Shown here piece by piece: positions 7,764 through 29,945 of a stretch of DNA of 39,805 bases; position 1 is the first letter of the stretch, and each line of letters starts with the position of its first letter. Position numbers and translations under genes: made by a program. This DNA comes from a virus. Below the pieces are notes generated by a model that searched no databases, was not told where the DNA came from, and saw nothing but the letters and a program-made list of their open reading frames with translations. The stretch spans positions 1-39,805 of IMG/VR virus record IMGVR_UViG_3300009703_000040; one strand, written 5' to 3'.

Positions 7764-9167
7764 ATGTCCACATTCATAAGAACTCTTGTAGAACAGACAA
7801 GAGGCACACCGATAAAGTTTACAAATTCTTTTGATAAGGTTCAAAATTTGTATGAAGCAAAATCAATTGCCTCAACTTTATCTGAGCAAGTAGACTTACC
7901 AGATGAAGTTTTAAATGGTTATACTCACGAAATTAATACTAAAAAAAGCACATCTAAAACAGTTGTTATTACAGTAAAATCTAGTGATAGAGATAACGAT
8001 AGAGATGAAATTTTAAGAAAGTTGACTCATGCAGGTGTTCAAGCTTCAATCATCAGTAGTTCTTCTAGTGTTGACCCAATTTCTGGTACACATAATGGAC
8101 AGAAGTTTAGAATAGAAGTTAAACCACTTTCTGGTGGTATGCAAGAAACCACACTAAATTCTAGTATTACAGAATTATTCCCTTGTATTGCATTTGAAAC
8201 AAATTATAATCCAAAGTCTGTACAAGACTTTATGGAATATTTAATGTCAATTGATGTTAATAAAATGAATTGTATACACTCAAAAGATAAAGAATCTGCA
8301 AAAGAAACAATAAATAATGCAGAATCATCTTCAAAGTATGAAGAAAAGATGAGTAATGCGATTGCAATAACCAAGTATCTTTATGACACAAGTAAAAGTA
8401 AACCTATAGAACAAGTTTATTGGGGATATAGACCAAGTTCAAAACCAGCTGGTGTGCCTGGTAATCACCCAGGCGATGTATTTATAAAATTTGGTGGTCG
8501 TTCTAATATGCAGTTTTTAGGTGTCAGTTTAAAAGCTGGTAAAAAAAAATCTAAAGAACCACAACTCAACACATATGTTAGACCAGTTTGGAAGTTCTTT
8601 AATGAAGATAAAGATTTGCAAACATTAAGACAAACTGCATATACACAAGTATATTCAAAAATTGTTGGTATGCCTTCAATTAATAATTTCGATGGTGGTA
8701 AAACTGGTAGACATAAAGATAAATCAATAACCCAAAAACTTTTAGTTGCATATGACAAAACAAATAATCGTGGATATGAAAAAGATTATGATACCATGTT
8801 AGAAATTATGAGAACTGGTATTGTTAATCTTTTTAATAAAGATAGAAATAAAAGTTTACAATATATAAAATCAGCGATACTTAGAGATGCACCAGATGTT
8901 CCTACTATTGTTATAAAAGCAGTTGGTTATGATTATAAAGAGATAACTGATAGAGATGAATTAGGAGTTTTCTTACCACAAGTTCAATTTATAAAAGCAA
9001 CAAAAGGAAAATCAAAACAAGAATGGTTACTAGAATTAAAATCTGTAAATGAAAAAGTTGTAATGTTAATGTCTATTCGTTCAAATAAATCTGGTAATGC
9101 TGGTCAAAAGAAGTTAGGTCAATATCCAACTGGTCTTGCAGTAAAATACAATGGTATAAGTAAATGA
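7764..9167 (+). CDS. Conserved marine-phage protein, unknown function; possible nuclease-like core
   Basis: A 467-residue protein, preceded by GGAG and a candidate late promoter. The N-terminus is polar with Ser/Thr-rich stretches (SIISSSSSVDP). The middle has GDVFIKFGGRSNMQFLGVSLKAGK: an Asp, a spacer of about 15 residues and a strand ending in S-L-K. This loosely resembles a PD-(D/E)xK nuclease core, with Ser in place of the acidic residue, so an inactive or divergent nuclease fold is possible but weakly supported. It overlaps the next gene by four bases and sits at the head of the late block, so a virion or packaging-related role is plausible. Confidence 0.6.
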   Translation: MSTFIRTLVEQTRGTPIKFTNSFDKVQNLYEAKSIASTLSEQVDLPDEVLNGYTHEINTKKSTSKTVVITVKSSDRDNDRDEILRKLTHAGVQASIISSSSSVDPISGTHNGQKFRIEVKPLSGGMQETTLNSSITELFPCIAFETNYNPKSVQDFMEYLMSIDVNKMNCIHSKDKESAKETINNAESSSKYEEKMSNAIAITKYLYDTSKSKPIEQVYWGYRPSSKPAGVPGNHPGDVFIKFGGRSNMQFLGVSLKAGKKKSKEPQLNTYVRPVWKFFNEDKDLQTLRQTAYTQVYSKIVGMPSINNFDGGKTGRHKDKSITQKLLVAYDKTNNRGYEKDYDTMLEIMRTGIVNLFNKDRNKSLQYIKSAILRDAPDVPTIVIKAVGYDYKEITDRDELGVFLPQVQFIKATKGKSKQEWLLELKSVNEKVVMLMSIRSNKSGNAGQKKLGQYPTGLAVKYNGISK

Positions 9168-10396
9168 TTTATTTATACGAAGATAAAGGTGGTAAAAATT
9201 TACACCTAGAACATTTAGAAGATGAAATTCTCAACTATGGAGTTGACGGAGGTAGGGCTGCAATTAATTTCTTACAATCATTAAGAGATATGTTGGCAGG
9301 TAGTTCTAGAAGTTCTGTTAACATGACCGTAAAATGGGATGGGGCTCCAGCAATATTTGCTGGAATAGACCCAGAAGATGGCAAATTTTTTGTTGCAAAA
9401 AAATCTGTCTTTAATGTTAATCCAAAATTATATAAAACAAATAAGGATATTGATAATGACTTATCAGGCGAACTTAATTCAAAATTCAAAATTGCATTAC
9501 AAGAGTTCTCAAAACTGGGCATCAAGGGTGTTATTCAAGGTGACCTCATGTTTACTGATGATACTGAAAGCACTACTATTGACGGGGCTGATTTTATTAC
9601 TTTTCAACCTAACACTATTGTTTACGCTGTACCTGTACGTTCAGATTTTGCTAAATTAATTAAAAGAGCAAACATTGGTGTTGTCTGGCATACAACATAT
9701 ACAGGCAAAACTTTACCTACAATGAAAGCATCTTTTGGAGTTAATGTATCTTCTTTGAAAAAACCATCTACTGTTTGGATGGATGATGCGAGTTATAAAG
9801 ATGTGTCAGGTAGAGCAACCTTTAGTGTGAGAGAAACAGAAAGTATTACAAAAACATTATCAGATACAGGTAGGACATTTCAAACGATTAGTGGTCCTAT
9901 GTTACGACAGTTTTTAAAATTACAAGATAGTATGACAGGTGTTCTTGTAGGTGCAACATTAAAAACATATACAAATAGTAAAGTAAGAATTGGAGCTCCA
10001 ATTAAAAATCCAAAACAACACGCAATGGGTTATGTAGATTGGGTAAAAGAAACAATTCAGAAACAAATTGATAAAGTAAAAACACCTGCAGCCAAAAAGA
10101 AATATGAGAATATACAAAAACAATATGTTATAGAAATGAAAAAACATACAAGAAATCTTGAACAAGTTTTAAGGTTTCAAAATCATGTGATAGATGCGAA
10201 GATGCAAATCGTTAGAAAACTAAATAGTGTTAAACAGTTAACAGATACTTTTATTAAAACTGCTAATGGATTTAAAGTGACTAACCCAGAGGGATATGTT
10301 GCTATTGACAGAGTAGGCGGTAATGCAGTAAAATTAGTAGATAGAATGGAATTTAGTTTTAATAACTTTACAGCTATAAAGGCATGGGATAAATGA
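9164..10396 (+). CDS. Ligase-like nucleotidyltransferase of marine phages
   Basis: A 410-residue protein. VKWDGAPAIF (56-65) looks like motif I (K-x-D-G) of the covalent nucleotidyltransferase superfamily (DNA and RNA ligases, capping enzymes), with Lys57 the expected AMP acceptor. GVIQGDLMF (122-130) resembles the downstream G-E/D-L motif III of that superfamily. I believe related proteins are annotated as a DUF in cyanophages. The C-terminal 150 residues are basic and helical (KKYENIQKQYVIEMKKHTRN), perhaps for nucleic acid binding. Four-base overlaps with both neighbours put it in a late operon with the cytidylyltransferase-like gene, suggesting a nucleic acid end-processing or virion-delivered role. 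Ligase activity is untested. Confidence 0.65.
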   Translation: MIYLYEDKGGKNLHLEHLEDEILNYGVDGGRAAINFLQSLRDMLAGSSRSSVNMTVKWDGAPAIFAGIDPEDGKFFVAKKSVFNVNPKLYKTNKDIDNDLSGELNSKFKIALQEFSKLGIKGVIQGDLMFTDDTESTTIDGADFITFQPNTIVYAVPVRSDFAKLIKRANIGVVWHTTYTGKTLPTMKASFGVNVSSLKKPSTVWMDDASYKDVSGRATFSVRETESITKTLSDTGRTFQTISGPMLRQFLKLQDSMTGVLVGATLKTYTNSKVRIGAPIKNPKQHAMGYVDWVKETIQKQIDKVKTPAAKKKYENIQKQYVIEMKKHTRNLEQVLRFQNHVIDAKMQIVRKLNSVKQLTDTFIKTANGFKVTNPEGYVAIDRVGGNAVKLVDRMEFSFNNFTAIKAWDK

Positions 10397-12240
10397 AAAA
10401 ATTCAAAGAATTAACAGAGGCTAAGAAGTTTGCCTCTTTCACTTTTGGAAGATTCAATCCACCAACAATAGGACACGAAAAATTATTATCAGCACTTGTA
10501 AGAAACTCAAGTGGAACTGATATGTTTATCTATCCATCACATTCACAAAATCCTAAAAAAGACCCACTACCACACTCACTTAAAGTTGCATATATGAGAA
10601 AGATGTTTCCAAGATATGCAAAAAATATCATGGCAAGTAAAGAGAAAACAGTTTTTGAGATTGTAGTAAGTTTATATAACAAAGGATATACTTCAGTAAC
10701 TATGGTTGTTGGTTCAGATAGAGTCAAAGAATTTGATAGTCTAATAAAAAAATACAATAAAGTAAATGGTAGACATGGATATTATGATTTTGATGAGATA
10801 AATGTTGTATCTGCTGGAGAAAGAGACCCAGATGCAGAGGGTGTTAGTGGAATGTCTGCATCAAAGATGAGAGCGGCCGCAAGTGAAAATGATGTCACAA
10901 ATTTTCTCAAAGGATTACCAAAAACATTCAGAGATGGCAGAACATTGTTTCGTGATGTTCGTAGATACATGGGTATCAAAGAAGAAATTGAACCTGATGA
11001 CTATCAAGTAATTAGAGATTTATACGTCACAAACCAGATATGGAATGTTGGAGATTTAGTTGAAGCAAATGATATTATTGGAACAATAGTAAATAAGGGA
11101 ACAAATTATGTTGCATATGCAGATGATGAGGGAAAAGTTCATAAAGCATGGTTGCACGAACTAAGAAAAGTAAAACAAGACAAAGACGTAGAAGATGACC
11201 CAGGCACACAACCAGCAAAATACTATTCTGGTGTCAAGAAAAAAACAAAAGATGCTAGGGCTGCCCATTTTAGAAAAGGTGCAAAAATGGATGATGACAA
11301 TCCAGCTGCATATAAACCAGCACCAGGCGATGCAAAGGGAAAAACAAAACCATCTAAACATACACAGAAGTATAAACAGATGTTTGGAGAAAGAGCAAAA
11401 CAAGCAGTTTCTCAAGGTAAAGTTCAGAAACTTGTAACTGCACATGGTTTAAAATTTAAAGGTAAAGTTCATAAAGAAATAGATATGGAGTTGAAGAAGA
11501 TTAACAACTCTACTGAAATGGTTACATTTAAAATTATCCACCCAAAAGAATTGTTTGGTAACGAAACCAATATATCATTTAAAGCATTAAGACGAGGGCC
11601 TTTTATGGCAACTGATACCTCAAAGATAAATGAGAAACTTGGTAAAGATGCAGACGCTGGTGATTACATAGATGACTTTAGAAAATCAGATGCACCACAG
11701 TTTAAAGGTAAATCAGATAAGAAGATTAGAGATATGGCAATCGCAGCCTATCTAGATACAAAAGACAAAAAAGAAAAAAAAGAAGAAAAGGCATATTTCA
11801 GAAAAGATAAAAAATTCTCAAATCTTAGAGTGCCAGTAAAAAGAAAATCAGGAAAAATAATTTATAGAGACCCGAGTGTGTACAAAGTTAAAGGGAAACG
11901 AACTACTCAAGATATGTTGGCCGCTGATGTAAAAGAAGATTGTTCTTGTTATGATCATGTAATTACAGAGTCAGAATATCAAGGTCGTAAAGTTAAATTA
12001 AATGACCCCTTTAGATTGCCAACAGGTAGCACTAAAAAATTTGGAGTCTATGTAAAGAATGAAAAAGATAATATAGTTAAAGTAACTTTTGGAGACCCTA
12101 ACATGGGTATTAATCGTGATGACCCAGCTGCAAGAAAAAGTTTTCGTGCAAGACACAATTGTGATGACCCAGGTCCTAAAACAAAAGCGAGATATTGGAG
12201 TTGTTTCCAATGGCGTGCTGGTGCAAAAGTAGATAATTAA
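10393..12240 (+). CDS. Cytidylyltransferase/NMNAT-like domain fused to marine-phage structural-type domains
   Basis: A 615-residue multidomain protein. Residues about 12-190 form an HxGH-superfamily nucleotidyltransferase: FGRFNPPTIGHEKLL (18-32) with T-x-G-H in place of H-x-G-H, and GMSASKMRAA (153-162), the equivalent of the ISSTxxR motif. Such domains add a nucleotide to a phosphorylated substrate (NAD or CDP-type chemistry). The middle is lysine-rich and low complexity. The last 100 residues hold RKSFRARHNCDDPGPKTKAR and YWSCFQWRAG, a cysteine/arginine motif I associate with marine-phage portal or prohead fusions. The fusion suggests a protein packaged with or processed in the prohead. 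The exact substrate is unknown. Confidence 0.75.
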   Translation: MKKFKELTEAKKFASFTFGRFNPPTIGHEKLLSALVRNSSGTDMFIYPSHSQNPKKDPLPHSLKVAYMRKMFPRYAKNIMASKEKTVFEIVVSLYNKGYTSVTMVVGSDRVKEFDSLIKKYNKVNGRHGYYDFDEINVVSAGERDPDAEGVSGMSASKMRAAASENDVTNFLKGLPKTFRDGRTLFRDVRRYMGIKEEIEPDDYQVIRDLYVTNQIWNVGDLVEANDIIGTIVNKGTNYVAYADDEGKVHKAWLHELRKVKQDKDVEDDPGTQPAKYYSGVKKKTKDARAAHFRKGAKMDDDNPAAYKPAPGDAKGKTKPSKHTQKYKQMFGERAKQAVSQGKVQKLVTAHGLKFKGKVHKEIDMELKKINNSTEMVTFKIIHPKELFGNETNISFKALRRGPFMATDTSKINEKLGKDADAGDYIDDFRKSDAPQFKGKSDKKIRDMAIAAYLDTKDKKEKKEEKAYFRKDKKFSNLRVPVKRKSGKIIYRDPSVYKVKGKRTTQDMLAADVKEDCSCYDHVITESEYQGRKVKLNDPFRLPTGSTKKFGVYVKNEKDNIVKVTFGDPNMGINRDDPAARKSFRARHNCDDPGPKTKARYWSCFQWRAGAKVDN

Positions 12241-14189: not shown

Positions 14190-17063
14190 ATGCGTAATAG
14201 AACAAACATATATGAGTTAATGGAAAAAGTAAATCAGTATGATGAGGGTAGAAAATCAGCATATGCATCTGGCGAGGATGATGGTGGTGAAAAAAATATC
14301 ATCAATCAGTTAAGAAAAGCAACTAATATGTCTACTTTCAAAGTTACATTTGATGACGGCAAGAAACAATCTGTTCCAATAAATGTTGCACAAGCAGCCC
14401 TAGATAAAGCAATGAGAATGAAACCTTTGGACAGATTGAAGTTTCAGAAAAAAATGCAGAAGTCTTACAAAGATATGTTATCTGTTATGAAAGAACAGTT
14501 CAACCCTGATGAGAATAAGGTAGGGGTTGGACTTGATGAAGATGCTAAAATGGCAAAACAGTCTGATGATAATCTTAAATCTATGATGAAGAAAATGCGA
14601 GATGCAGAAAAGAAAGACCCAAAGATGCCTTCTATTCAACATATGATTAAACGTATTGAAAAAGAAATGAAGAAAAGGGGTTTAAAAGAAGAAGTTGAAC
14701 TTGATGAAACAATCGTAGACTTTGATTATTCAAGAAATCCACAAGGAATATACAATGCATTTTTGCAAATGAGTAGAAGATTAGGATTAACACTTTTCAA
14801 TGCACCAACTGGAATGACAGACCTAAAAGATAAAGGCACAGGTAGAATTGGTGCAACAAAATCTAATATGGTTAAATTTATGAAATACTTAAATAGTAAA
14901 GGTATAGAACCAAATGTAGAAATAGTTAATGAGGCAAAAAGTCAAGGTATGTTTATTGTTTTAGAAAAAGGTTCTAAAAATAAAGTTATAGGTCAGTTTA
15001 GGGATAAGAAAAAAGCCATAGACATGATGAAGAAAAATGCTGGTTCAAAAGTTATCCAAATTGGCAAATTTGCAACTACAGATAATAAACCAGCTGATAT
15101 AAAAGTTGGTGATGAGTTATCATATACTAGAGTAAAACTTGCAACCAAAATAAAAGAAGAAACTGAACTTGATGAGAAGGTTGAGTATGTAGAGTATAAG
15201 TTTAAAAATGAAAGAGATGCAAAAGCTGCTAAGGCATATTTTGATGGTATTCAATTGATGAGTTTTGATGTAAATGATGATAATATTCGTGGTGGTGAGA
15301 TTTCAGTTGATGCTGGTAATAGAGATATGACTAAGTATCACAAAGATGTTATGAAAAAATTTAAACCAAAAGTTATGACACAAGAATCACTTGATGAAAA
15401 GTATGACTTGTATCATAGTACATTTTCTGGTGCAATGCAACACGCATATGATTATGCAAAGAAGAAGTTGGGTGTTACAGTAGACTCAAAAGAGATTGAC
15501 AGTAAAGTAGCAACTGGCCCAAGAAAACCATCTGAAGGTAAAACAAATAAATACAGACTCAAAGGTAGAGGTGGTAACTTACAGATTCAAGTTTACAATA
15601 AAGGTGGTTCAAAACCATTTGAGTTGAATATGTATAAAGAAGAAGTTGAAATGTTTGATGAGGGTAAGAAACTCAAGAGTGGTATGAATGTTGATTTTGA
15701 ATTATATACTTCTATGTCTAAATCTAAAGCTGCAAATATGGCAATGAATAAAGAAATTAGAAGAGCTCAAATGATGAAAGATTATAAAACTGCAAGAGCA
15801 CATATGGATAAAGTTCAAAGTAAATATTCAGAACTTGGTGCTCAAGATAGTGAACCAGATCGCACAATTGATAAAATACTAGGAGTGGTATTTGGTAAAG
15901 TTAATATGGGTGGTGATAAAAAACTTTTTGAATATGTATCTAAAAATGAAGAACTTGACAAGGGAGATGAACCTAAATTAAAAGGTATAATTAAAAAGTT
16001 AAAGAAAGCAAGTGATGCACACGCTGGACAAGCAAAAGATTTAGAGAAAGCAATTACTGAACAACCAGAACATGAAATCACAGTTGGAAATTATACTACT
16101 AAACATTTTCATATGTGTGGGTCTGCTCAAGATGTCATGAAGAAAAATGCAGATGTTGAAGGTGCAGAAGAACTAACAAGATTACAAGACAAGTTTTATG
16201 AGATTGAAATGAAAGCTCATGATGCTGGTGAGGCAACAGATGAACAAAAATCACAGGCAAGAGATTTATATAATCAAATTATGAAAAAAGCAGGGGAGAT
16301 TGGACTTGCAGATGACATTGATGATTATATGTTACAACATATTGACTCAATGGAAAAAGGAGACCCAAAACTAGGTTTTGGAAGAACAGACATAAAAGAA
16401 GAATTTGAACTTAACGAAAAAATTGAAGGACTTGTAAAAAAGGCAGAGAAGTCAGGTATGCCATATGGTATTTTAAAACAAGTATATGATAGAGGAATGG
16501 CTGCGTGGAGAACAGGTCATAGACCAGGCACAACACCTCAACAATGGGCATTTGCTAGAGTTAACTCTTTTGTAACAAAATCAAAAGGAACTTGGGGTGG
16601 TGCAGACAAAGATTTGGCTTCTAAAGTCAGAGGTAAATCTGAAGCATATGAGATAGGAACTCAAAGATACACAGACTACCTAAAACAAATTACACCAGGC
16701 GAACAGAAAGAGGAGAGAAAAGTGAATGTTATTGAAAGAGCTCTTAAAGAGTTAGATAAACTAAACCCAGATGCTGTTAAAAAGAAATTTAAAGACAGAA
16801 AAGACAAAGATATTGACAATGATGGTGATGTAGACTCATCAGATAAATACTTACATAGAAGAAGAAAAGCTATATCTAAAGCAGTAAAAAGTGAGGAAAT
16901 AGAAGTGACACAACAAGAAAAAAATATGTCTATGCGACAAGCTCTAGCAAAAGTTTGGGAAACCAATGAAGGTAAGAATCCTTTCAAAAATAAGAAAGAG
17001 GAGAAAACTGCCACTGGTAAAAAAATGACAAAAGTGGAAGTGCATCCAAAAACAGAGGAATAA
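14190..17063 (+). CDS. Large modular virion/prohead protein with repeated LxE cleavage-like linkers and an EF-hand
   Basis: A 957-residue hydrophilic, lysine- and glutamate-rich protein made of modules separated by similar acidic linkers: LKEEVELDE (165-173), IKEETELDE (321-329), TQESLDEK (397-404), YKEEVEMFDE (482-491), KNEELDKG (585-592) and IKEEFELNE (735-743). Several contain L-x-E, the type of site cut by the T4 prohead protease gp21. Residues 754-813 (SGMPYGILKQVYDRGMAAWR, TGHRPGTTPQQWAFARVNSF) form a compact domain common in marine phages. Residues 874-885 (DIDNDGDVDSSD) are a textbook EF-hand/dockerin calcium loop. I infer an internal head or prohead core polyprotein; it is not one I can name. 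Confidence 0.7.
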   Translation: MRNRTNIYELMEKVNQYDEGRKSAYASGEDDGGEKNIINQLRKATNMSTFKVTFDDGKKQSVPINVAQAALDKAMRMKPLDRLKFQKKMQKSYKDMLSVMKEQFNPDENKVGVGLDEDAKMAKQSDDNLKSMMKKMRDAEKKDPKMPSIQHMIKRIEKEMKKRGLKEEVELDETIVDFDYSRNPQGIYNAFLQMSRRLGLTLFNAPTGMTDLKDKGTGRIGATKSNMVKFMKYLNSKGIEPNVEIVNEAKSQGMFIVLEKGSKNKVIGQFRDKKKAIDMMKKNAGSKVIQIGKFATTDNKPADIKVGDELSYTRVKLATKIKEETELDEKVEYVEYKFKNERDAKAAKAYFDGIQLMSFDVNDDNIRGGEISVDAGNRDMTKYHKDVMKKFKPKVMTQESLDEKYDLYHSTFSGAMQHAYDYAKKKLGVTVDSKEIDSKVATGPRKPSEGKTNKYRLKGRGGNLQIQVYNKGGSKPFELNMYKEEVEMFDEGKKLKSGMNVDFELYTSMSKSKAANMAMNKEIRRAQMMKDYKTARAHMDKVQSKYSELGAQDSEPDRTIDKILGVVFGKVNMGGDKKLFEYVSKNEELDKGDEPKLKGIIKKLKKASDAHAGQAKDLEKAITEQPEHEITVGNYTTKHFHMCGSAQDVMKKNADVEGAEELTRLQDKFYEIEMKAHDAGEATDEQKSQARDLYNQIMKKAGEIGLADDIDDYMLQHIDSMEKGDPKLGFGRTDIKEEFELNEKIEGLVKKAEKSGMPYGILKQVYDRGMAAWRTGHRPGTTPQQWAFARVNSFVTKSKGTWGGADKDLASKVRGKSEAYEIGTQRYTDYLKQITPGEQKEERKVNVIERALKELDKLNPDAVKKKFKDRKDKDIDNDGDVDSSDKYLHRRRKAISKAVKSEEIEVTQQEKNMSMRQALAKVWETNEGKNPFKNKKEEKTATGKKMTKVEVHPKTEE

Positions 17064-19371: not shown

Positions 19372-19791
19372 ATGAGAACATTTAAACAACATATTAAAGA
19401 AAATAAAGTTGGACAATTTTATGAACCTGCTGATGACAATATTAATCCAGCACAATTGTCAGACCCAGAAGTATTAAGAAAAATAAATGCTTTTGTAGGT
19501 TCAGTTGCAAATCAGAGTTATGTTTTACCTGAACAAGCAATTAACATAATAAGACAAAAATTAAATCGTTTAGGAATTGGATTTGGAACAACACCTAAAA
19601 TGGAAGGTGCCTCAGGCACAGTAAGTCTACCGATAACTGTATTCGGTGGAAGATTTGGAAAAGATACAGACACACCACATGATGAGTTTTTGAATGATGA
19701 TGGAACTAAAGTTGAAGGCGGCCTATCTTTAAATATATCTTATGAGATGATAGAAAATAATTCATGTAAGTTAACCGCTCGTATAGAGTAA
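19372..19791 (+). CDS. Conserved marine T4-like phage protein, unknown
   Basis: A 139-residue protein starting MRTFKQHIKENK, the short basic-amphipathic leader seen on several proteins of this region that may be a prohead-targeting tag. The core (LRKINAFVGSVANQSYVLPE to LTARIE) is mixed alpha/beta. It begins a tightly overlapping set of five genes (19372-21644). I recognise no catalytic motif; a head-assembly function is a guess from location. Confidence 0.6.
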   Translation: MRTFKQHIKENKVGQFYEPADDNINPAQLSDPEVLRKINAFVGSVANQSYVLPEQAINIIRQKLNRLGIGFGTTPKMEGASGTVSLPITVFGGRFGKDTDTPHDEFLNDDGTKVEGGLSLNISYEMIENNSCKLTARIE

Positions 19792-28436: not shown

Positions 28437-28594
28437 TGCAGTTAAAGGTTTGTTTATCGTGTGACGCCGAGTTTAAAATTAAACATAATATGGATGGAAC
28501 ATATTATAGAGTTGAATTCTGTCCTTTTTGTGGCGACAAGGTAGATGAAGAACTAGAAGATGAAATAGAAGATATGGATGAATATGAAGATTAA
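28436..28594 (+). CDS. Small zinc-ribbon protein
   Basis: A 52-residue protein: CLSC (6-9) and CPFC (29-32) form a zinc ribbon, followed by a very acidic tail (VDEELEDEIEDMDEY). Its ATG overlaps the nrdJ stop and its end overlaps the next gene by 17 bases, which supports it as real. Such mini ribbons are common in marine phages and could act as transcription or protein-interaction factors; no specific function can be assigned. Confidence 0.7.
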   Translation: MQLKVCLSCDAEFKIKHNMDGTYYRVEFCPFCGDKVDEELEDEIEDMDEYED

Positions 28595-29945
28595 AAAATT
28601 CAAAGAAACTTTATCAGAAGAGGTTGAGGATAAATATCGTGTCGTTGTTCTTACAGTAGAACACGGCGATAATTCTATTACCTCAAAAAGAATCAAAGAG
28701 GAATCTAAGAATTTAGGATTTCCTTGTTATATCGCAAATTTTAAGGGTGCATATATTGAGGATGGGAAAATCTTTAGAAAAGATGATGAGTCAGGTTTTG
28801 ATATAAATCCAAGTAATACTGTGTTCTTTTTTAGAGGAACACCACCTCAAGATAGTATGTTAGATTTAATATCTGAGATTGAAAGATTAGGATATTGCTG
28901 TGTAAATTCTAGAGAGTCTATTTCAATAGCTGCAGACAAATATAGAAGTTACATTCGTTTAAGAGATAACGGATTACGACAACCCAAAACTGTTTTAGTT
29001 CATAGTGAGGAAACTTTAGAGCAAGCTTTTGAATCCTTAGATTCAAAATTTCCAATCATACTAAAAACTTTGAGAGGCTCTAAAGGTGTTGGAGTTTTGT
29101 TTATTGAATCTGAAAGAGCATTAAAATCTGTTGTACAATTAATTTATAAAATAGATAAAGACTCTGATATTCTAATTCAAGAATATGTCAAAACAGATTT
29201 TGATGTAAGAGTTTTAATTTTAGACAATGAAATAATTGCAACAATGAGAAGAGATGTTGTCGAGGGAGATTTTAGAAGTAATTACTCTCAAGGTGCGAAG
29301 GTTTCAACTTACAAACTATCAGAAATAGAAAAGAAAGATTGTTTAAGAGCTGCAAAAGCAGTTGGTGGATTATATTCAGCAGTTGATTTTATTGCATCAA
29401 AAGATAGGCCTTACATATTAGAAGTAAATTCATCACCAGGTTCTGAGGGTATTGAAGATGCAAATAATAAAAATATTATAAAAGAGGTCTTAGAATATTT
29501 TAAAGATACTAAATTTAGATATACTGTTCCTACTCAATGTGGATATTATGAAGAAATTATTGTAGAACCTTTTGGAAAACTCATAGCAAAGTTTGATACA
29601 GGCAATTCAGTTTTATCTGTTTTACACGCAGAAAATATTGAAATAAGTGGAAACAAAATTAAATTTACCACAATGAATAGACAACATATAACAAAATTAG
29701 TAACATATAAAACTACAAAAACAGGCTCTGGAGAAGAAGAAAGACCTGTTGTGCAATTAGATATGATTTTTTCTAATACAAAATTAACAAATATTATGTT
29801 CGCATTAGATGATAGAAGTGATATGGGTACTGATGTTTTATTAAACAGATATGTCATGAGTCGTTTGAATGTAATGGTAAACCCACAAAGAAAGTTTATG
29901 ATAACCACACCAGATGAAAGTACAATCAGCAAAAGCAAAAGGTAG
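28578..29945 (+). CDS. RimK-like ATP-grasp ligase fused to a RimB-like aspartic protease domain
   Basis: A 455-residue two-domain protein. Residues about 15-310 are ATP-grasp of the RimK type: ILKTLRGSKGVGVLFIES, ILIQEYVKTDFDVRVLI and YILEVNSSPGSEGIE with the Mg-binding Glu/Asn. The last 140 residues carry IAKFDTGNSVLSVL, a D-T-G retropepsin-type site, and DRSDMGTDVLLNRYVM and RLNVMVNP, which match the RimB/ATP-dependent zinc-protease-like family. RimK adds glutamates to ribosomal protein S6 and RimB removes them. The phage joins writer and eraser in one chain. Ribosome, or another carboxylate-bearing target, is possible. Confidence 0.85.
   Translation: MNMKIKKFKETLSEEVEDKYRVVVLTVEHGDNSITSKRIKEESKNLGFPCYIANFKGAYIEDGKIFRKDDESGFDINPSNTVFFFRGTPPQDSMLDLISEIERLGYCCVNSRESISIAADKYRSYIRLRDNGLRQPKTVLVHSEETLEQAFESLDSKFPIILKTLRGSKGVGVLFIESERALKSVVQLIYKIDKDSDILIQEYVKTDFDVRVLILDNEIIATMRRDVVEGDFRSNYSQGAKVSTYKLSEIEKKDCLRAAKAVGGLYSAVDFIASKDRPYILEVNSSPGSEGIEDANNKNIIKEVLEYFKDTKFRYTVPTQCGYYEEIIVEPFGKLIAKFDTGNSVLSVLHAENIEISGNKIKFTTMNRQHITKLVTYKTTKTGSGEEERPVVQLDMIFSNTKLTNIMFALDDRSDMGTDVLLNRYVMSRLNVMVNPQRKFMITTPDESTISKSKR

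Follow-up and report, generated by a model that had tools for sequence, protein, structure and literature searches.

DUF6267, a Family of Predicted Ligase-like Nucleotidyltransferases in Marine T4-like Phages

Introduction

What is the role of a ligase-like protein encoded next to a second nucleotide-adding enzyme in a phage genome? This question is raised by a gene of the virus record IMGVR_UViG_3300009703_000040, the whole 39,805-base stretch of which was analyzed and is referred to as the window. The gene (9164..10396, plus strand) encodes a DUF6267 protein of 410 amino acids (aa). A sequence-only reading had taken it for a ligase-like nucleotidyltransferase located among virion genes, hinting at virion-packaged nucleic acid repair or protein nucleotidylation. 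Based on the modelled fold and the invariant motifs, we conclude that the protein represents a divergent enzyme of the ligase superfamily with a predicted RNA-ligase-like core. It is a probable nucleic-acid end-processing enzyme, delivered together with the genome by some phages, because a predicted ligase fold and ligase motifs are combined with pairing to an enzyme resembling nicotinamide mononucleotide (NMN) adenylyltransferase (NMNAT) and, in many relatives, with a capsid-targeting-like tag.

Family Assignment and Distribution

The open reading frame (ORF) 9164-10396 was a full-length match to PF19782 (DUF6267), with an E value of 2.7e-106 and 356.6 bits against a curated cut-off of 27, and also belonged to PHROG 455 and to the cyanophage cluster T4-GC 71. 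Neither Pfam nor PHROGs assigns a function to the family, and no mention of DUF6267 was found in the literature searched. Relatives were present in 466 phage records, almost all of them T4-like cyanophages, and the family is widespread among marine phages. The closest isolate was Methylophilales phage Melnitz (71.6% identity). Relatives were absent from the plasmids searched, and a scan of viral contigs with the Vibrio homologue as a query retrieved none. Two size forms were distinguished: a long form, to which the 410-aa protein of the window belongs, and a short cyanophage form of 300 aa.

Conserved Motifs

When 70 homologues (identities of 25-78%) were aligned, 30 columns proved invariant, among them K57, D59, G60, K80, Q125, D127, H176, Y179, E376, G377, V379, K390, and R394. 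By their sequence, these residues are consistent with motifs I, Ia, III, IV, and V of the covalent nucleotidyltransferases, a superfamily comprising DNA and RNA ligases and capping enzymes: motif I is KWDG (residues 57-60), motif Ia contains K80, motif III is QGD (125-127), motif IV is EGYV (376-379), and motif V is KLVDR (390-394). The superfamily is characterized by the lysine of motif I and by charged residues in motifs III, IV, and V; in DUF6267 these would be K57, D127, E376, and K390, respectively. This assignment relies on established knowledge of the superfamily, motif order, and secondary structure rather than on residue-level superposition. A PN..Y sequence (149-154) marks the motif IIIa region and is followed by HTxY (176-179). 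Residues H14, H17, E19, and D20 of the N-terminal HLEHxED (14-20) were invariant as well.

KWDG and the QGDL segment (125-128), on which the sequence-only reading was built, were therefore confirmed as genuine motifs and not chance resemblances, since K57, D59, G60, Q125, and D127 are invariant across homologues with identity down to 25%. That list was incomplete: K80 of motif Ia, E376-G377-x-V379 of motif IV, and K390 and R394 of motif V had been overlooked. Written as a regular expression, the motifs in their order matched 341 of the 350 DUF6267 ORFs and 10 of the remaining 802 ORFs. Of these ten, four were additional DUF6267 copies that the first set did not contain, and two were true ligases (T4 gp30 and GAP32 RnlA). 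A loose ligase-motif expression also matched three ORFs located 3' of the cytidyltransferase gene in phages of the P-SSM4 group (L162 8062-9021, L172 8062-9030, and L175 8062-9483), probably by chance.

Predicted Structure and Comparison with Known Ligases

The AlphaFold2 model built from the 70-row alignment had a mean predicted local distance difference test score (pLDDT) of 87.2 and a predicted template modelling score (pTM) of 0.84. In a VIA-align 2 search, the top match was the Naegleria RNA ligase (Z 8.5, 184 residues, 3.8 A), followed by REL1 (Z 8.2), Trl1 (Z 8.0), and T4 Rnl2 (Z 7.4); archaeal RNA ligases and DNA ligases were found lower, at Z of about 5.5-6.4. RNA or DNA ligases made up 48 of the 50 matches listed, and the best ones were all RNA ligases. 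Because a Z value near 8 alone may be due to chance, the support for the fold rests on this 48 of 50. Capping enzymes were not among the matches listed, which is not proof of their absence. By these matches the model has the fold of a nucleotidyltransferase domain. Structure prediction, the check proposed with the sequence-only reading, thus led to ligases and not to an unrelated fold, and together with the invariant motifs it supports the initial designation of a ligase-like nucleotidyltransferase.

Judged by sequence families, DUF6267 is neither an Rnl1, nor an Rnl2, nor a DNA ligase. PF09414, the T4_Rnl2_C domain, and the KxK of motif V, characteristic of the Rnl2 type, were all missing, the second lysine being replaced by V392. 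In genomes encoding DUF6267, PF09414 was found only in separate genes of Vibrio phage EniLVp02, and it was not among the listed families matching the 70 members. PF09511 of the Rnl1 type was matched by one of the 70 members, with an E value of only 0.039, and was not found in eight Kyanoviridae-type genomes (S-PM2, Melnitz, P-SSM4, HTVC008M, S-RIM44, S-CREM2, P-HM1, and ACG-2014f). Of the features of ATP-dependent DNA ligases, neither a PF01068 match nor an oligonucleotide/oligosaccharide-binding (OB) fold after motif V was present; the chain stops 16 residues past R394. According to DSSP of the model, an all-helical insert (about residues 222-355; 9827..10228, plus strand) separates motifs IIIa and IV. 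It is shorter in the 300-aa cyanophage members (spacing of 140-157 versus 217-222 residues). Weak Pfam, NCBIfam, and PADLOC matches to SWI2_SNF2, ZorA, HsdR, and PDC-S06 were rejected, being far under the cut-off and located in other parts of the protein.

With the Rnl2-type proteins (T4 Rnl2, Naegleria RNA ligase, REL1, and Trl1) DUF6267 shares the predicted fold of the catalytic core, the motif I lysine, an acidic residue in motif III, EGxV in motif IV, and a lysine in motif V. It differs from them in having KxDG where they have KxHG, D in place of the motif III E, a single motif V lysine plus R394, and the long helical insert, as well as in the lack of the C-terminal domain and of significant sequence similarity. 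With T4 gp30, representing ATP-dependent DNA ligases, it shares the modelled fold and KxDG; however, the structural match was weaker, and neither the OB-fold domain nor a Pfam match was found.

Gene Neighborhood

Genes for UvsX and the gp41 helicase are located 5' of the DUF6267 gene in the window, while primase and ribonucleotide reductase are encoded further 3'. The same replication-gene surroundings were found in cyanophages S-RIM44, P-SSM4, and P-HM1. The block is therefore one of replication and nucleotide metabolism rather than a canonical late structural operon, and the proposed location among virion genes was not borne out, except that the genes directly 3' of the neighbor's homologue in S-CREM2 encode virion-detected proteins (PMC10665884). 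The DUF6267 gene shares four bases with each of its neighbors (ATGA at 9164-9167 and 10393-10396); due to these overlaps, the three genes look translationally coupled.

The 3' neighbor (10393..12240, plus strand) encodes an NMNAT/cytidylyltransferase-like protein of 615 aa (PHROG cytidyltransferase, E 6.4e-78). The sequence-only reading had called it an HxGH nucleotidyltransferase; its motif, GRFNPPTIGH, is a TxGH variant and not literally HxGH. The nearest NCBIfam models, TIGR00482 and TIGR01526, are NMN adenylyltransferases, both matched below the equivalog cut-off. Among loci with enough sequence, an NMNAT-like gene was present 3' of DUF6267 in 121 of 128 loci of the long form and in 78 of 148 of the short form. 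In S-PM2 the two proteins are fused into one of 591 aa, and two further fusions (ORFs of 936-938 aa; L364 and L366) were encoded on contigs of a Firmicutes bin.

The 5' neighbor (7764..9167, plus strand; 467 aa, phrog_2496) contains an invariant PxD...GxSxK. The same slot at about 250 loci is occupied by highly variable sequences, of which the aligned group keeps this motif (P236, D238, S255, and K257). The motif resembles that of PD-(D/E)xK nucleases; a structure search did not confirm a nuclease fold, its matches spanning only residues 17-124. These residues of the model matched Pol-beta-type nucleotidyltransferases with Z of about 8.

Three P-loop kinases with tag-like N-termini were encoded near DUF6267 genes (L034 907-1590, L346 1239-1823, and L347 6206-6781); one was zeta-toxin/polynucleotide-kinase-like, and two were adenylate-kinase-like. 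A 957-aa protein encoded in the window at 14190-17063 carries a DUF5824 segment at its C-terminus. The C-terminal part of the PHROG 3041 cytidyltransferases matches this segment as well, a hint that a domain is shared.

Capsid-Targeting Tags and Virion Proteins

In T4-type phages, a short N-terminal tag serves for packing proteins into the virion. In T4, targeting depends on residues 4 and 7 of the tag, and processing on residues 8 and 10 (PMC9026906). A tag in the T4 register was defined by an aromatic residue 4, a hydrophobic residue 7, and Glu at position 9 or 10. Such a tag was carried by 35 of 51 DUF6267 proteins of the window clade, by none of 123 from other clades, and by 5 of the 105 ORFs used as controls (p 2.6e-17); this and similar p values overstate certainty because related sequences are not independent. 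Examples of the window-clade N-termini are MKTFSELLTED and MISFRELTED, with relatives MISFRELTEDKGGK and MKTFSELLTEDKGGK. In distant relatives on marine metagenome-assembled contigs the tags are clearer, e.g., MHTFKQFLAENKNTHMEHLED; they were found in 18 of 32 DUF6267 proteins, 15 of 21 NMNAT-like proteins, and 10 of 22 products of upstream genes, compared to 11 of 160 controls. A capsid-targeting-like tag was also seen on the 5' neighbor in several distant phages. In the window itself, the DUF6267 protein begins with MIYLYEDKGG (9164..9193, plus strand), which by comparison with relatives is a shortened or degenerate form of the tag of its clade; its NMNAT-like neighbor carries the T4-type tag MKKFKELTEA.

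The NMNAT-like neighbor (T4-GC190) was detected in virions of S-SM1 (PMC3037559) and S-CREM2 (PMC10665884), with the caution of the latter authors that copurification is possible. The N-terminus of the S-CREM2 protein, MKNFSSFLTEAD, is near that of T4 IPIII (MKTYQEFIAEA). Among the S-CREM2 proteins inspected, a loose tag pattern matched 5 of 12 virion-listed proteins, including the NMNAT-like one, and 6 of the 90 remaining proteins. Related DUF6267 and NMNAT-like proteins thus share with the T4 internal proteins and Alt an N-terminal MxxF/Yxx[FLIM]xxE in the same register. Unlike the latter, the cargo is a ligase-like enzyme, and the tag is missing from DUF6267 of cyanophages and degenerate in the copy of the window. 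By these N-termini, the DUF6267 protein of the window clade probably travels in the virion.

Tag-like N-termini were also observed in other proteins. A RimK-like ATP-grasp protein with a second domain, putatively zinc-protease-like (PF05618), encoded in the window at 28578-29945, starts with the tag-resembling MNMKIKKFKETLSEE; a 139-aa orphan (19372-19791) with the N-terminus MRTFKQHIKENK, near the T4-tag register, is a candidate packaged protein. In the Cas9-like virion protein of S-CREM2 (L324 7704-10313), a tag-like RFASFMAEAAVD lies some 17 residues after the start, suggesting a packaged nuclease.

Functional Interpretation

The predicted fold, the motifs, the operon with its fusion, and the tags are established computationally; from them, we infer catalysis, a nucleic-acid substrate, packaging of DUF6267 itself, and a role in repair. 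We would give about an even chance to the explanation that DUF6267 is a divergent nucleic-acid ligase, acting with its cassette partners and delivered in the virion at the onset of infection in some lineages. DUF6267 would be a branch of the covalent (lysyl–nucleoside monophosphate) nucleotidyltransferase superfamily, in which K57 would attack a nucleotide cofactor to form the lysyl–nucleotide intermediate; metal and phosphates would be bound by K80, D127, E376, and K390. From the lysine, the nucleotide would be transferred to a 5'-phosphate end, which would then be sealed. The putative partners are the NMNAT-like enzyme encoded 3', sometimes fused, and the variable nuclease-like protein encoded 5'. 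The T4-type N-terminal tags of the window clade, and those of many distant marine relatives, would direct the proteins into the prohead, and the cassette proteins would therefore enter the cell together with the DNA. There they could treat at once nicked or cleaved nucleic acid, such as cleaved tRNA or nicks of the incoming genome, serving as an early repair or counter-defense kit. Repair of nucleic-acid ends shortly after injection is our preferred role for DUF6267.

Several results, besides the caution on Z values, weigh against a virion-delivered ligase. A Foldseek search of the whole 410-aa model against PDB gave nothing significant, and plain sequence searches of PDB with the protein and the 70-row profile gave nothing relevant. 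Comparisons by hhalign with T4 Rnl2, a four-row Rnl2 alignment, and T4 DNA ligase were not significant, one of these alignments pairing the EGYV motifs. The protein lacks both the second motif V lysine and the C-terminal domain that known ligases have, and the cassette does not include a conserved polynucleotide kinase or phosphatase. The N-terminus of the window protein (MIYLYED) does not fit the T4 register, and an in-frame stop codon lies directly 5' of its start. Cyanophage DUF6267 proteins are untagged, and the S-CREM2 copy (gp87) is absent from the virion list of that phage; packaging is therefore not part of the core function of the family. The earlier hint of packaging was thus upheld by the tags of the window clade and by the neighbor found in S-SM1 and S-CREM2 virions, while the unlisted S-CREM2 DUF6267 speaks against it.

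The untagged cyanophage proteins, the S-CREM2 virion list, and the modelled RNA-ligase-like core would also suit an intracellular RNA ligase repairing tRNA during infection, with N-terminal tags that are a coincidence or a relic. We regard this as unlikely in view of the strong, register-specific enrichment of tags in the window clade, in distant relatives, and in both neighbors. A further candidate role is that of the missing replicative DNA ligase, sealing nicks between Okazaki fragments instead of T4 gp30 and not primarily a virion protein. The adjoining uvsX, gp41 helicase, and primase genes agree with it, as does the ligase inventory: Pfam identified no Rnl1, Rnl2, ATP-dependent or NAD-dependent DNA ligase, or RtcB in the eight Kyanoviridae-type genomes, while T4 possesses Rnl1, Rnl2, and DNA ligase and lacks DUF6267. 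A review reported the absence of a gp30 homologue from cyanomyoviruses, with an unrecognized distant homologue as one possibility, and noted that a host ligase is able to substitute for the phage enzyme (PMC2984593). This substitution, the better structural match to RNA ligases than to DNA ligases, the lack of an OB-fold domain after motif V, and capsid tags, which are odd for a replication enzyme, all make such a role rather improbable; simple replacement of gp30 is further weakened because both EniLVp02 and Stenotrophomonas phage DLP_6 encode a DNA ligase along with DUF6267.

Nucleotidylation of a protein or small molecule (AMPylation or capping), with no joining of ends, would be compatible with the missing second motif V lysine and ligase C-terminal domain, and the acceptor is not fixed by a ligase fold alone. 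However, ligases were the best structural matches, with no capping enzyme among those listed, and to our knowledge the covalent nucleotidyltransferase superfamily has no protein-modifying members. We found no specific support for the protein nucleotidylation suggested by the sequence-only reading and consider nucleotidylation of either target quite improbable. NAD+ as a cofactor, with the fused or adjacent NMNAT-like enzyme converting the released NMN back to NAD+, would explain why this domain is the most constant partner, fused in S-PM2, with NMN adenylyltransferases as its nearest NCBIfam models; the invariant HLEHxED, having no assigned role, could also be accommodated. We nevertheless view it as very improbable: no Ia-type NMN-binding domain was identified, the NMNAT assignment of the partner is below curated cut-offs, and known RNA ligases with such a fold depend on ATP. 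There is even less reason to expect the combined scheme of a virion-delivered three-protein cassette, in which a ligase of a new family would treat nucleic acid of the host or that entering the cell, jointly with a nuclease-like protein and an NMN adenylyltransferase; the ligase would consume NAD+, and the NMNAT would recycle the NMN released.

Our preferred reading, a divergent ligase repairing nucleic-acid ends and delivered by some phages, concerns a very abundant group, the T4-like marine phages, among which cyanomyoviruses reportedly have no T4 DNA ligase (PMC2984593). By the Pfam families tried, DUF6267 is the sole protein of the ligase superfamily in eight such genomes, and the 466 phage records hold it with no function assigned. 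The tag pattern predicts which of its relatives would go inside the virion.
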